NCBI GenBank assembly: GCA_905250025.1
Contig: CAJNOJ010000235.1
Location: 62,001-126,000 of the forward strand
Direction: 5' to 3'
DNA from: Adineta ricciae
Lineage: Eukaryota; Rotifera; Eurotatoria; Adinetida; Adinetidae
DNA: 64,000 bases
The notes under the pieces were generated by a model. It made no database searches. It saw nothing but the letters and a program-made list of their open reading frames with translations, and was not told the origin of the DNA. The position numbers and the translations under genes were made by a program. Each line of letters opens with the position of its first letter. Within the stretch, counting starts at the first letter, position 1. Below are positions 36,929 through 45,127 of this stretch, one piece after another.

Positions 36929-39900
36929 ATGAATTTGAAAAGTTTTATTACATGGATTTACAACAAAGGGATCAATTATAATCTATTTATGTTGAAAGAC
37001 GATGAATACGATGATGATGAAAATCTTTCAGATCCACATCTGATTGTGAAATATCAAAAATATAAAACTCGGTTTTATATTCTTCTTCTGACAGGTAATG
37101 ATCACCTTATTCTTAAGCCCAGGTCAACAAATCCGATGCTGGATCCGATCGGATCTTACCGGATCCGACCATCCGACAAAATCCGATCGGATTCCTGGAA
37201 ACGGAATTGCATTGGAATCCGACTAGAAAAATCCCGTCGGTTGTTGCAAATTTTATGAGCGATCTTTCTAGCTATATTCTATGATGATCCTTAGAAAATC
37301 CAGGAAATCCATGTTTCGGGTCCGACGAGATCCGACGTGGGATCCGATCGGATCCGAGACCGTCGGAATCCAATGCGATTCCGTCACCAGGATTTCATCG
37401 GATCCGTCGAATTCCTGTAGGATCCGATAAAATTCTGTATTGGATCCGATGGGATCCGGTGGGATCCGAGTATGGGATTGTTCGACCTGGGAGGGTGAGG
37501 GTGAGAGGATGCTCATACAAATGAGAATTTCTTTGTTTTAGTTTGTTTCTATATCTTATTCTATGTCAATTTAATCAAAACACAATCAACAACAATTATC
37601 ATATCGAACATATCGGTGTGAAGCTAGCACGAAGGAGCTAGCACGAACAAACGATATGTTAGGTAAAAACTTTTTTACTAAATATGTCCCGTCCATGAGA
37701 ACTACACCATTCGACTCAGAATTTAATTCTGCATCGAGTGGTGGCACTTTTATCCACCGGACAAACTTTGGAAAAATTCTTTCTGAATTATAAATAGACC
37801 TAAAGGAAACGAACAAAGATATCGATAGAAAATTTTCCAAAGTTTGTCCGGTGAATAAAAGTACCATCATTCGATGCAGAATTAAATTCTGAGTCGAATG
37901 GTGTAGTTTTCATGGACGGGACATATTTAGTAAAAAAGTTTTTACCTAACATATCGTTTGTTCGTGCTAGCTCCTTCGTGCTAGCTTCACACCGATATCG
38001 AACATCAGATTTCCAATATACGTTAAACTTTACGATCGACATCATCAGACACTCCTATGTCCATGTTCAACTATCACCACTCCTTACCAGAATTTTACTT
38101 CGAATAATGTCACNGTCGAATGGTGTAGTTTTCATGGACGGGACATATTTAGTAAAAAAGTTTTTACCTAACATATCGTTTGTTCGTGCTAGCTCCTTCG
38201 TGCTAGCTTCACACCGATATCGAACATCAGATTTCCAATATACGTTAAACTTTACGATCGACATCATCAGACACTCCTATGTCCATGTTCAACTATCACC
38301 ACTCCTTACCAGAATTTTACTTCGAATAATGTCACAACACATCCAGTCTGTTCAAGTATTTTTATTAGTGAAGAATGGATCACAAAGTTATATTTTGAAA
38401 ATGCAAGTGAATATGGTGTGTGGGATTTTCGAACAACAGCCTATTCACAAGTAATCAGTATCACTATTTTCATTCTCATTCTAATCCATTTGTTTTTAGT
38501 TTGAATTGTTGTCGAGGTTTTGTTCTCTTTCGAAACAAATCATTTCTCAGATTTTAATTGATGTGAATAACACTGAACTCGTTAGTCTTTATCTTCATTC
38601 TAAAAAGCAAATTGAGATTGAAATTGATGGTACAACTGAACATCTGAAGAATAGCGCAATATCCCGAATGATGACCTTTTTTGATTATCTGAAAAATACA
38701 AGTGACAAGCATTATTTTATCACAGCTCTCAACACAAATTTCATAATTTTAGTAAATAATAATACGAATAAATATCTTTCTTTTGAAGGACACGAAATAA
38801 AGAAAAAATATAACCTGCGACCATCATGCGATAATTTAATGCTGTTAATCAATGCCACGCTTAGTCCACTACCATTCAACATGACTGTATATCGCAGAAG
38901 AATTGAATTATATCCAATGTCTGATTCAACCATCGTCAATGGTTTCCTCACAGGATGTACACCTCTTAGTGCACTTCTCCAAAGTACATTAGATTGTCTT
39001 TACAAAGTGCAATGTCTTCAGTTATTACTCAACTATTTTCCAAAATTAACACAAGTTTGTATTCAAATATTGAACACTGTCTCATCCAATCTTCTTTCTC
39101 TCTTCTCTTCTCTTTAGCTTAATTTCGATCCGAATAACTCGGCTTTATTTTCTCAAGATGAGAGAATACCTATTCATCAATATTTGAATACTCTTTTCAT
39201 AATAAACTGGTCAAGACAGATTGATTATGAGAAATATTTTCAACTGTGTTCTCCATCTTCATGTTCATATTCGAAAACAGAACGAACAGAACTAGTCTAT
39301 GCGATTACACTTTTCATCAGTCTCTATGGCGGTCTCACCATTGTTCTTCGTCTCATTGCATCATTTTTTGTTGATGTCATCAAAAAATGGAAATGTTGGT
39401 CAAAAAAGAGAAATGACAATCCAACAGGTAATGATTCCTTTGAAATCAAGTGAAACATCATGAATATTTATCTGATCATTATCATAGAACAACGAGCCAA
39501 GAAGTGGAAATTGGTTGAAACAATGAGACACATGAATTTGTTTAAAGATATCAATGATCGAACGGAACATGGTGTTAGACAACAGAAGATTACCACACGT
39601 GTTTACCTAGCTTTATTGTTTGGTAAAGTTTCATGATTTTACAAAATATACACACACACACAATTCTAGCATTCTCATATCTTGATTTGTTTCTGATCTT
39701 AGGTTTAATCTGTACTATTTGTTTGTTCACATCATTGAATAGTGAACTGATGACAATAATCGAAATAGATCCATCAGTCACAACTTACCATTCTTTGCAA
39801 AGTTCTCATGTCGATTCACTTCAATGTCCATGTTCGAAGAAGGCAACATCTTATGGAAGTTTTCTATCATTATCTCCACGTTTCCATCAAATATGTTCGA

Positions 39901-42900
39901 GCGGTTTCATTCATGGCAGCTGGATAAATATGTTGGACAGTTATAAATATGATTTCTCTTTCAATGATTGGCGATATCGTCTATATTTACAATTTCAGTT
40001 TTTGTCTAATTTTTGTTACTTAGCCAACAAGACGGTCAATGATGCTATAGGTCGATATCTTTCACAACTATTTATTGTTTCGTCTGTGATGAACGAAACT
40101 GATCTCAACAAACAAATCAATGGAAGTCTTAATCAGTTTTATCAATCAATAGTGTTTAGTTTTTCTGTGATGACAGATGTTTTACAACTGTGGATGCAGA
40201 TAGATCAGCTATATATGGTACCAGTGAGGAAACACAATGGAATGTCTTATGACGTTAATTTAATGAATAATGTTTTGACAAAGGACATCGATGTCAATCA
40301 ACAACTCAAGGTAAGTTGTTATTTTGCCTAATAGAAGAATGTGAGAATTTATGCGAATGAATTTCTCTCTTCCACTAATATTCTTGTCCTTCAGATCCCA
40401 AATAAAAAAGAATAGTCGGTATATTTTGACTCGGAGTGTTGAAAGTTGAAAATGGAATTATTTTATGGAGACTCATATCTTACATTGGTTCAGAATTCAT
40501 GATATAATGAGATTTCAGAGACAAATCTTGTTGTTCAAATGAACAATCAGTTAAACTGTAGTACAACTAGCATATGACTTTCACAAGTACTCACTATATA
40601 CGCATCAAACAAGTCGTTTTCTCTTCTAGATTTTCACATTCATATAGCGTAGTATTTTGTTTCTCACTTAGTTTCTATCAAGAAACAGATCTAGGCTTTC
40701 CTTAACTTTTAGTTCCACTTTCGGTTGAATCAACTCCAAGAAATTAATTCAACGACGACCAAATGTATCTGTGCTATCGACCCGTATTGTCAAGTACCAG
40801 CTGTTATATATGAATCTTCCTCCATACATGGGACTAGTTCTGGTAGCAATCTACTTCTTTACGTACCAGGCTGGATTCAACGGTGTCTTGCTGTTGATTC
40901 TCTTCTATTTTCATCGCTCGAATGTTTTTATGAGAATTCCGCTTGTTTTCCATCATTATTAGTTATTCTTTCTTTCAGGTATGTACTAACAGTGTATCAT
41001 CCGCCTTCTTATCAGTCAAGAGTCTTAAAAGACGCGTTTGCACATATAGTCGGAAGGTGTGGATGAAATTTTGTTTTCTATGGAAGCCTAGACCTTTAAA
41101 AAAGCGTTTCCAGTTAGTAAATAATACCAAGCTATCACCATCTTAGCAGGATAGAAGTGAGAATTCTACGACAGAAAGTGTTTCGAGCATACAGTTTGTC
41201 AGTATATAACGCTTATAGTTGCAATTTTTTGAGCACGTGGGTAAATGCGTGTTTAAAAAATCTGGTCTATTAGGTATCAATACCCATCTGATCTTGTCTC
41301 AATCGTTTATGATCCAACAACAACTCGATTCTCTCGGCAGGCAAATATTTCCACTATGTTTAAAGAGATGATGATCGAACAATGGCATTCTTCAATATCT
41401 TATCAGTCATTCTATGACGCATGTGCACCTACTTTTTGTACCTATTCTCAGAAGATGCACACAAAAAACTTTTTCGAGATAATCATAACATTACTATCAA
41501 TGGTTGGTGGTATGACACTATCACTCAAAATTCTCACGCCTAGTCTTATCACAGTGGTTATTCGATTGTTAACAATGATTAGGAAAGGTAGACAAAGACA
41601 GGAGCAAAGTAAGTTTTTGTCAAACCTGTTTCAGTGCTTTCTATTTCTTCATATTTTCTATAGTCCATCGAAGTTCTTTTAATCGAATAAAGATCAGTAT
41701 ACAAAATGGAACCAAGTTTTTGTCAACAAAACTACTTGACTTGAATATCTTTGCTTCATCTGATTTTGGAAGCAATGTTGATCCACTGGCAGCTAAAAAC
41801 TATGGCCGATGGGCAACTCGTCTTTACGTCATCTTATTTCTTAGCAGTTTCATCATTCTCACCTTCTATACAATTATTCAATCACATGTTGTGACAACAA
41901 CATTCACTCAACCCTTATTTGATATTTATGAAGGATTACAAGAAAATTATGGCAAGCAACTCAAATGTTTATGTTCACAGATTGCATCAACATACAATGA
42001 GTTTGTCGTAATAACACCAGAATTTCATCCAGTAAGATCAAACTCATTCATTCATTTTGTACAGAACTCATACAGATATGTCCGATATGAAGACTAATCA
42101 TAGGCACATGTTTCTAGATTCTATTAACAAAACAACAAAGAGAACGATTTCATTTAGTATAATATAATAGTATTTGTTTCCAATATCACATAATAGAACA
42201 ATCCGAACGATAAAATCAAGAGTCTCTCTTCGAAAACAAAGCGCAGAACAAAATGTAGATTTATTTGAATAAACATCATCGCCCCTATGAGAATATTCAT
42301 TTCTAGATTTGTTCAAGCGAATTCGTACAAGAAGAATGGTATATGCAGATAATAAATGGTCTTGCATTGAACGTCTCTGCTTATTCACCCAATGATTATC
42401 GTCGATTTCTTTCTTCTCATCTTCTATATCTTCAAAAATTGTGTCAAATCTCACAAGATTCAGCTAGCAATGCGATCAATGAATTTCTCACATCATTGTT
42501 AGTCACTACTGAACTTCTTTCTCAACAAGATTTTCATCGTCGTATCAACATCACAATTCAACAAAGTGAACTCAATGCTCCCATTCTCTTATCTCGATTT
42601 CTCTTCATCATTCAAAGTGTCGTTCATGGAAATGCTTATATGACAACATATGAAACTAATTTTCGATATTTTACTCGCTTTTATGATATTAATGAAAATT
42701 ATGTTTTTACAGATGCAATGATCTATGATGATAATTGTTCATGTGGACTATCTCCAAGCTGTACAACTCAAGCAACTCTCATTGAAAATAATTCTTCAAA
42801 CATAATTACACTTATCGGACTGAAAATGGGATGTTTACCAAGTGAATCTTTTCATTTCTCAACTCTCGAATGTTTTCATAATCAATCGTGTGTTGATCTT

Positions 42901-43305
42901 CTTCATCAATATATAAATTATCCAAACATTTCCATTCCTCGTTCTATCACATCAAATCACTTTCCATCAAACACAACTATTCATGAATTGATAACATATG
43001 CATTTACTGAACAATGGAAAACACAAACGAACTATTCAAAATACTATCATCAATGTTTACCCTCCTCATGTTCATACACCTACACTAAAAAGTTCGATAT
43101 CTTGTACATCATGACACTTTTTCTTAGTCTTCAAGGTGGTTTAACGTTAGTTCTGGAATGGATCTGTCCAAAACTGATTCTAACTGTAGTAAAAATGTCT
43201 GAATATTATCGTAGAAAACACAGAATATCAATCCATCCGATGCATTCACTTTCAATCACATCAGATCGTCTCGAATGCATTGCTGATCTTCAAACATCCA
43301 AGTGA
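36929..43305 (+). CDS. Three-module TM-ectodomain-TM membrane protein
   Basis: Family not recognised. Exons 36929-37094, 37542-38450 (interrupted, see below), 38500-39054, 39118-39427, 39488-39622, 39703-40310, 40713-40978, 41274-41608, 41664-42031 and 42307-43305. Without the inserted element (37612-37996 plus one TSD) and one copy of the 222-bp duplication at 37893-38335, they sum to 4035 nt, 1344 aa, every phase consistent and no stop. Three homologous modules of about 441, 448 and 455 aa follow each other. Each has RxYxxL then TM1, a CxCS motif, VCSS or ICSS plus W, a large glycosylated ectodomain, a CxPxxCxYS-type pair and TM2 with a GG (SLYGGLTIVL, SMVGGMTLSL, SLQGGLTLVL). Topology recalls DEG/ENaC channel subunits, but similarity is weak. 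Introns joining modules A-B (60 bp) and B-C (55 bp) are in phase 1. Confidence 0.7.
37120..37490. repeat. GATCCG-rich foldback repeat inside intron
   Basis: Left arm about 37125-37245 and right arm about 37310-37490 are imperfect reverse complements: CCTGGaaACGGAATtGCATTGG on the left pairs with the same block in the reverse complement of the right. Both arms are dense in GGATCCGATCGGATCC-like palindromes. The element lies wholly within the phase-1 intron 37095-37541 of the three-module gene. Non-coding; class unknown. Confidence 0.75.
37612..37996. mobile_element. Mutator-like foldback element (385 bp) in an exon
   Basis: Termini ATCGGTGTGAAGCTAGCACG and its reverse complement, arms of about 170 bp and a loop of about 40 bp, flanked by ATCGAACAT at 37603-37611 and 37997-38005. 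Long inverted arms with a 9-bp duplication are the signature of nonautonomous Mutator-like (MULE) elements. It lies in the coding exon just after TM1 of module A; element plus TSD adds 394 bp and breaks the frame. Confidence 0.88.
37893..38335. repeat. 222-bp direct duplication around a single N
   Basis: 37893-38113 and 38115-38335 are identical by eye, separated only by N at 38114. The unit includes the right part of the MULE and 108 bases of host exon. The pattern is that of an unmerged contig overlap. Confidence 0.92.
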
Positions 43306-43357
43306 TTCAAGGACAGTTTAACTTTTGATGTGTTAAGCTTGAATTTGTTCTATTTAG

Positions 43358-45127
43358 ACGAACAACTGTTTCATCAACTTGGCGTTATTCGAAACTAATC
43401 TTGTTAGTTGTTTCATTGATATTACTGTTGATCAGTATTGTGATATTTTCCGTTTATTATGCGAGAAAAGGTAGAAGAATTCAGTTTTCTGATAATTATG
43501 CAGAAATATTGTCTTGAATAGTTTCATTGATGGATGAAACACTAGATCGAAACGAAAGTACAACAAGTACAACGACGTCCACATCTTCGACTGTAACAAG
43601 TGAGATCCCTTGCGTATAAAATAGAGTCTATGCCGTCCGTGTGTCCGCACTTCTCTCATTGGATAAAAGATCGGCGAGATCAGAAAATTCAAATACGAGT
43701 TCAACGAGAAAGGATCGATGCGATTGTTAAAGGAAAATTGTACTTGTTTCATACATTCGAATATTGAGTCGAATGATGAACATCGTTTAAAAAAAAGATC
43801 AGTTTTAGAAGGAAGATAAGTCACAAAAACAAATTCTTTCTTTATTCTTGTAGAAACATTTTGTCGAGATAAGTTTCAGCTGGTATCAACCAACATTTCT
43901 TGTCGGGATCGCATCGTGGAACGGTTTACTGTGACAAGTGGCGACTTCAACAATGATAAACGAATAGATCTTGTATATTCTTGTAAATCTGGTAGAAATG
44001 AGAAGATGGTGGTATCGCTCAATAATGGAAACGGAACATTTTCTGATTCTATGACCTTCGTCTTGCCGAGATATCATTGGGTAAAATATATTTATATTGC
44101 TGATGTTAATAATGACAATCGATCTGATATACTTTTAATAACGCAAATCACTGGTATGCAGGTAAAGTTGATGGTATTATTAGGGAATGGCAATGGAACT
44201 TTTCAAAATTCGACGATGTTGTCGTTTGGTGGTATTGGTAAAATGATTACAGCCCATATCGCCGACTTGAATAATGATAATCGATTTGATGTGTTTCTAG
44301 CAGAGAAGTTTAGTGAGAAGATAATGTTAACCACTGTATTAGGCTGTGGTGATGGTACATTTCAAACACAGCCTGTAATATCGTCTATGGTATTTAGAAG
44401 CGATATAGCTGAAATGATGCTACTTGATGTTAATAAGGATACTGTGTTGGACATCGTTGTGCGTTATGTTTCGTTTAAGAATATTCATATAATGTTTGGA
44501 CAGAATAATGGAAGTTTTTCACCCGAAGTTTCATTAATGAAAAACGAACTGATATCAGGACCGTTATCTGTTATCGATAGTAACAATGATGGCTATCTGG
44601 ATATTGTTCTATACAGTATCGAATCTTTGCATATCCATGTTTTTTTTGGAAGTGCAAATGGAACATTTGAAATGCAAACACCATTCTTCACCAATTTTGC
44701 CTCCTCTAATAAATATCTAATAACTGGCGGCTTTAATAGTAACAATCAATCTGACATTGTCGTTGTTTACAGTGGGGAAGATGTTGAATGTATAGTCTAC
44801 AATTATATTAATGGTAGTTTTCAAGGGAATGAGAGAAATATTATAAAATCACTTGGAATAATACATAAAATTGTTGTGTGTGATATAAATAATGATAGTC
44901 ATTTGGATATTGTTGTTTACAGTCATCCAACTTACACTATCGATATATTGTTTGGAGATGGAAACAATCGATTTTCTGCACAAATGATTTATTCGAATGA
45001 GGACTATCTCGATTGGTTTGATGTTCTCGACCTGAATAATGATAATCACGGAGATATAGTCACTATTAATAGACCAACGATGCTTATTAACGTTCTGTTA
45101 TATAAACGTGAATGCTCTATCTACTGA
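43358..45127 (+). CDS. Type II membrane protein with FG-GAP/VCBS propeller
   Basis: Exons 43358-43470, 43522-43599 and 43854-45127, phases consistent. First a short basic segment and a transmembrane helix (LILLVVSLILLLISIVIF), then a Thr/Ser stalk (STTSTTTSTSSTVT), two Cys around RDKFQLVSTNISC, and about eight FG-GAP/VCBS repeats with calcium-binding D-x-N-x-D loops: DFNNDKRIDLV, DVNNDNRSDIL, DLNNDNRFDVF, DVNKDTVLDIV, DSNNDGYLDIV, GFNSNNQSDIV, DINNDSHLDIV, DLNNDNHGDIV. This predicts an extracellular integrin-alpha-like beta-propeller. No ATG lies in frame before the TM exon; the only good way in is splicing from the preceding gene (GT at 43303), or a start at the Met of the second exon, which would lose the TM. 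Listed as 5' incomplete. Confidence 0.75.

Follow-up and report, generated by a model that had tools for sequence, protein, structure and literature searches.

Three homologous two-transmembrane modules joined in one chain: a large gene family of the bdelloid rotifer Adineta ricciae and its possible pseudo-threefold architecture

Does a single gene of the bdelloid rotifer Adineta ricciae encode one protein made of three copies of a two-transmembrane (TM) unit, and what kind of protein would that be? The question is raised by positions 36929-43305 of a 64,000-nucleotide stretch of DNA (C235:62001-126000, here called the window). It was followed in the 130-Mb genome of 1,033 contigs to which the window belongs, and all relatives described below come from this genome. 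Rebuilt exon by exon, with GT-AG splice sites throughout, the gene yields a protein of 1,344 amino acids (aa) that is stop-free when an insertion in exon 2 is disregarded. A previous reading of the letters alone (the sequence-only reading) had described one open frame over every intron; this holds for the spliced reading, with the reservation that it had not mentioned the exon 2 insertion. The three homologous segments of 441, 448 and 455 aa that it named, here modules A, B and C, were exact in length, and each consists of TM1, an ectodomain of about 330 aa and TM2. Their homology, confirmed by BLASTP, spans nearly the whole module length; identity is 24% between A and B and 27% between A and C, and the E values of the single comparisons (6e-25 for A-B and 7e-40 for A-C) are far beyond chance. 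The modules and their linking introns are listed here with reference to two relatives, L039 (C80:345300-352300) and L040 (C163:128700-136200).

36929-39427, plus strand: module A, aa 1-441, in the spliced reading, with counterparts in L039 and L040; exons 36929-37094, 37542-37611 with 38228-38450 (one exon, cut by the insertion), 38500-39054 and 39118-39427; the next codon is split between 39427 and 39488.
39428-39487, plus strand: intron of 60 nucleotides (nt) that links A to B, phase 1; L039 and L040 each have an intron of 59 nt at the matching residue, also in phase 1.
39488-41608, plus strand: module B, aa 442-889; exons 39488-39622, 39703-40310, 40713-40978 and 41274-41608.
41609-41663, plus strand: intron of 55 nt that links B to C, phase 1; L039 and L040 each have an intron of 60 nt at the matching residue, also in phase 1.
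41664-43305, plus strand: module C, aa 890-1344 and the stop codon; exons 41664-42031 and 42307-43305.

Both linking introns had been described as phase 1 and without a stop. The phase is right and the spliced junction codons are stop-free, but retention leads to stops: the A-B intron contains an in-frame TGA, and the 55-nt B-C intron would shift the frame into a stop soon after. In L039 and L040, the order A-B-C is kept; over 1,342 aligned residues, they share 1,024 and 1,022 identities with the window protein (76%) and contain no stops. Each has nine introns, eight of which match the window gene in residue and phase; the seventh lies three residues off in a different phase, which is possibly an alignment matter. 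Ratios of nonsynonymous to synonymous substitution (dN/dS) were calculated by the Nei-Gojobori method with our own script. For the whole protein, they were 0.34 and 0.35 for the window gene against L039 and L040 and 0.34 between these two. In the four window-versus-relative comparisons at the junctions, the values were 0.29-0.36, and L039 against L040 gave 0.38 at the B-C junction, with few changes. These values indicate that purifying selection acts across both module junctions.

The joining of the modules is not peculiar to spliced genes. At C422:13748-17689, three modules lie in a single intronless open frame of 1,314 aa, which shows that the modules can be joined without splicing. Two modules share an open frame of 860-883 aa in C199, C153, C430 and C167 and of 803-806 aa in C512. 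Further long open frames have 1,325 aa (C447), 1,287 aa (C747), 1,279 aa (C345) and 1,235 aa (C422); the readings of C447 and of the second C422 gene covered part of the frame, with two modules in each case, and C747 and C345 were taken from the listing alone. Twelve loci read in letters have A, B and C in order: the window, C80, C163, C291, C220 (plus strand), C220 (minus strand), C272:65898-70316, C326, C199:60109-64171, C153:166893-171075, C422 and C350. Loci with only 1,500-base flanks were left out of this count of module number. C291, the minus-strand C220 gene and C272 align along A-B-C with 50, 49 and 42% identity and no stops. The plus-strand C220 gene contains a single stop and a stretch of undefined residues, and C326 aligns from aa 154 onward, its stretch being cut and its first module incomplete. 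The conserved order, the intronless frame and the selection at both junctions strongly support the sequence-only proposal that the protein is a natural concatemer of a two-TM unit, as far as genomic letters can tell.

The family is large. Searches, in each of which the best approximately 100 of approximately 1,400 candidates were scored, gave at least 157 match clusters on at least 102 contigs, as judged from coordinates alone (clusters and whole genes do not always coincide; 257 of 360 rows were used after secondary exon rows had been removed by hand). The family is probably larger than counted. Among the matches listed, 27 clusters were matched by all three queries, and 25 of them were ordered A-B-C; the two exceptions were merged neighboring genes and overlapping matches. 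A tree of 51 modules (leaving out the A modules of C326 and of C153b on the C153 minus strand, and the B module of C153b) groups the modules by position. For the intron-bearing genes, the A clade (7 rows) has support of 100/100, the B clade (8) 100/100 and the C clade (9) 100/99, and corresponding A, B and C sets occur in one intronless group. Position labels require 5 changes on the tree, compared with 18.6 in shuffles, and none of 200 shuffles was as low. Thus, within each group at any rate, A, B and C were established as distinct positions before the genes multiplied.

The TM segments of the window protein were placed by hydropathy cores, and their nucleotide coordinates were converted by hand from aa positions via the exon table.

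37070-37582, plus strand: TM1 of module A, aa 48-69, divided by intron 1.
39289-39384, plus strand: TM2 of module A with GG, aa 396-427.
39589-39749, plus strand: TM1 of module B, aa 476-502, divided by an intron.
41470-41580, plus strand: TM2 of module B with GG, aa 844-880.
41810-41893, plus strand: TM1 of module C, aa 939-966.
43099-43191, plus strand: TM2 of module C with GG, aa 1277-1307.

Motifs and cysteines were counted in the 51 aligned modules of this genome and topology features in 47 near-full-length modules. Most of the motifs previously seen in the three window modules are widespread: both cysteines of CxC and the cysteine of ICSS are present in 49/51 modules (with two gaps each), and CxPxxC is present in 48/51. 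The R of RxY is less general (37/51, with W in 6/51). Conserved cysteine positions number 12 per module; ten hold a cysteine in 49-51 of the 51 modules, and C5 and C7 do so in 44 each. In TM2, the first G of the GG pair is found in 45/51 and the second in 50/51. Seven residues past the first G stands an R or K in 39/51 (module C of the window has E there), and a proline follows the basic residue in 39/51. The positions also differ in a conserved manner: C5, C7 and the TM2 proline are missing from all seven A modules of the intron-bearing group and kept by its eight B and nine C modules. TM1 was detected in 47/47 modules and TM2 in 46/47. N-glycosylation sequons are concentrated in the ectodomains (329 of 339, in a region that makes up 77% of the residues), and a net positive charge precedes TM1 in 39/47 modules. 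This placement of sequons and charges fits a predicted topology with N- and C-termini and linkers in the cytosol and glycosylated ectodomains outside.

The recurring number three, the fixed order, the position-specific features and the selection at the junctions suggest that the protein depends on the presence of all three modules, and it would most simply be a pseudo-threefold six-TM unit. Here, we propose that the three homologous modules fold within one chain into a pseudo-threefold unit, like three fused subunits. The gene product would most likely work as a surface receptor, possibly as a ligand-gated pore or transporter in which the GG-bearing TM2 helices would be arranged round the axis. 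The pseudo-threefold fold, the surface location and any pore are what we infer, and we hold with moderate confidence that the product is a single-chain, six-span, pseudo-threefold surface receptor, possibly with a ligand-gated pore or transporter function. A pseudo-trimer would be the best idea for the recurrence of the number three.

Several observations weigh against this proposal. C512:45675-52118 has five modules, placed by the tree as A, B, A', B' and C, and its second (B type) and third (A type) modules lie in one open frame, so five-module chains may exist. C167:61231-67366 also has five modules, two of them partial; modules 1/3 and 2/4 are near-copies, and the extra modules are therefore recent duplications. 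Three modules are thus not an absolute rule. Other loci have fewer than three whole modules: C516 consists of one module and fragments, part of A is missing from C153b, and C176 and C235:151790 hold C-terminal fragments alone. A census of near-full-length modules (at least 186) gave 117 clusters, 68 of one, 29 of two and 20 of three modules and none larger, in which the one- and two-module cluster sizes are lower bounds because of the share of candidates scored per search, and the absence of clusters above three is weak because C167 was counted as three and C512 as single modules, both being really of five. Clusters were formed with gaps of up to 1,500 bases, and two half-matches at C199:125797-127230 were joined. 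The census used 218 of 561 rows, namely all 101 of one search, 43 of the 100 of another and the near-full-length rows of the others; the rows left out of the 100-row search were repeats of already listed places, C291 and C862. At the A-B junction, dN/dS between L039 and L040 is 0.68, with few changes. In the tree, the deep nodes that link the A, B and C clades across gene groups are weak, and modules A and C of C422 are sisters; for these reasons, it is no more than likely that the triplication arose once for the whole family. No similarity to any trimeric channel was found by sequence. AlphaFold2 models had mean predicted local distance difference test scores of 34.9 (one exon alone) and 45.2 (seven window exon rows), too low for use in judging either a palm-finger-thumb fold of the DEG/ENaC type or a packing of the modules around a common axis.

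A different question is whether the window copy itself still works. Positions 37612-38227 break its exon 2 in two; they hold a fold-back miniature inverted-repeat transposable element (MITE) of 385 bp and a 221-bp exact duplicate around an N at 38114.

37612-37996, no strand: MITE, 385 bp, inside exon 2 of module A, with the 9-bp duplication ATCGAACAT; the site is empty in L039/L040.
38114-38335, no strand: N, followed by an exact repeat of the 221 bp at 37893-38113.

The MITE arms (37610-37778 and 37830-37998) are 169 nt long and 96% complementary. Further copies in the genome are up to 96% identical, many with identical ends, among the best 40 of 355 candidates in a DNA search. The N with the 221-bp duplicate is a probable assembly join. 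In both L039 and L040, MITE-related sequence lies directly upstream of the gene, and intron 1 of the window gene holds a palindromic GGATCCGATCGGATC-rich stretch (37120-37480). It is a real, if tentative, possibility that the MITE has recently turned the window copy into a pseudogene while the family is functional, which is compatible with any of the other explanations. Read straight through the insertion, module A contains many stops; both relatives have the empty site; and intron 1 is enlarged as well (447 nt, against 155 and 154 in L039 and L040). On the other hand, a GT-AG intron at 37618-38230 would remove the MITE and hold the frame open with one added residue, although this pair may be due to chance. 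In addition, the frame has no further stop, and its dN/dS resembles that of the intact pair. The MITE may thus be spliced out in frame, a transposon turned intron. No MITE-free allele of the window copy was recognized.

The main rival to the pseudo-threefold unit is a multivalent surface receptor or adhesion protein, in which the ectodomains would stand side by side with no common axis or pore. The large expanded family, with its cysteine-rich and sequon-rich ectodomain, accords with such a protein, as do the two loci with five modules, and no observation made here demonstrates a pore. Moreover, in the part of PMC3846280 consulted, expanded families of bdelloids are thought to serve defense/immunity, chemosensing and signaling. 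However, repeat number would then be expected to drift more freely, yet three recurs, and positions A, B and C keep conserved differences. On balance, we consider this alternative unlikely. A bolder version of the pseudo-threefold proposal is a new family of ligand-gated channels, unrelated in sequence to P2X and DEG/ENaC, with about a hundred loci and a whole threefold channel in each chain. We regard it as unlikely; in such a channel, the conserved basic TM2 residue would be a hint that anions permeate or that the gate is charged.

The DEG/ENaC/ASIC and P2X families are trimers, and the modules have the layout of DEG/ENaC subunits, with two TM segments and a large cysteine-rich ectodomain. 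The sequence-only reading had therefore pointed to DEG/ENaC, with the caution that primary similarity was weak. No sequence test made supports the link. The ASC profile (PF00858) has 90 matches elsewhere in the genome and the P2X profile (PF00864) 46, which served as positive controls, and neither has a match on the contig of the window, C235; both families were also absent from the Pfam scans of the modules. These exon matches show that ordinary ASC and P2X sequences exist in the same genome. As a hidden Markov model (HMM), the module profile scored the ASC proteins of the genome no better than shuffled ones, and hhalign against an own-genome ASC profile gave a probability of 0.1%, a weak negative with a shallow profile of 7 rows and an effective sequence number (Neff) of 2.2. 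DEG/ENaC/ASIC proteins have a GxS selectivity filter after the GG in TM2 and an HG motif before TM1, and P2X proteins have TxK/R before TM1. In the modules, G[AS]S is absent from the last 60 residues (0/51), any GxS in TM2 is found in 2/47, HG within 60 residues before TM1 in only 3/47, and TxK/R before TM1 in only 9/47. A divergent DEG/ENaC/ASIC (or P2X) member in concatenated form is thus improbable: the shared topology, the GG in TM2 and CxPxxC near the ectodomain end speak for it, but the profiles match elsewhere and not on this contig, the hhalign and HMM results are null, G[AS]S is missing, and the module profile found no sequence of the PDB at E <= 10.

Other collections gave the same picture of a large family that matches none of the curated families searched. 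In Pfam, single modules and three long chains gave nothing over the curated cut-off (best E 0.0024, one module), and in NCBIfam no family matched more than one of 29 modules and none was above the cut-off. The weak Pfam matches, each family in one of 29 modules and all under the curated cut-off, were judged to be chance, as were LytM_N in two of the three long chains, also under the curated cut-off, and phrog_20796 of PHROGs ("unknown function"), with E 1.2e-4 over a TM-containing stretch of C422. With one module C exon as the query, prokaryote and viral collections gave 28 and 1 pattern matches, respectively, none encoding a relative. No description of a trimodular two-TM family was found in the portions of the literature consulted, and a term search of the accessible part of PMC9949801 gave no match.

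That a cleaved polyprotein, or an intron-retained product ending after a module, would supply separate two-TM subunits is very improbable: the linkers are short and basic and the retained A-B intron has an in-frame stop, but the predicted topology would place the linkers in the cytosol, intron retention is impossible in the intronless relative, and the window B-C linker has no Met between aa 879 and TM1 of C, although L039 and L040 do have one.

The proposed pseudo-threefold chain can be compared with known systems. Mitochondrial carriers of the SLC25 family are single chains of three homologous two-TM repeats with six spans and pseudo-threefold symmetry. The window protein resembles them in its three two-TM repeats and six spans in one chain, with pseudo-threefold symmetry as the predicted part of the likeness. 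SLC25 repeats are about 100 aa long, lack a large ectodomain and carry the signature PX[DE]XX[KR], whereas the modules described here have an ectodomain of about 330 aa and none of 47 has this signature at TM1 or TM2; SLC25 was also absent among the Pfam matches. With DEG/ENaC/ASIC and P2X proteins, the likeness lies in two TM segments, a large disulfide-rich ectodomain, cytosolic termini and the number three. The subunits of those channels are separate chains, no sequence relation was detected, and the ASC-type G[AS]S is missing from the modules. Four-domain voltage-gated Na/Ca channels are natural concatemers of four six-TM units whose repeats have position-specific differences; the modules share the concatemer and such differences, and unit type, copy number and family differ.

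Some sequences around the gene are repeated. An 806-bp piece (42827-43632) with the end of module C and downstream sequence recurs at C176 with 96% identity. It also recurs, inverted over 766 bp, at C235:151.5k with 93% identity and nearly the same left boundary. The next downstream open frame, 43820-45127, encodes FG-GAP repeats (PF13517, E 4.2e-40), and the consulted part of PMC3846280 counts FG-GAP among the expanded families of Adineta vaga. The same part reports large lineage-specific expansions of multigene families in that species; the family described here resembles them in its large expansion, and no two-TM trimodular family is named there.

The analysis brings to light a large family outside the curated families searched, in a type of genome known for expanded families. 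Should the fold be threefold, a trimeric two-TM protein would have had its subunits fused into one chain, after which the three positions diverged. If this is true, single positions of such an assembly would become open to study in a natural protein, and the family would show how fixed heteromers evolve.
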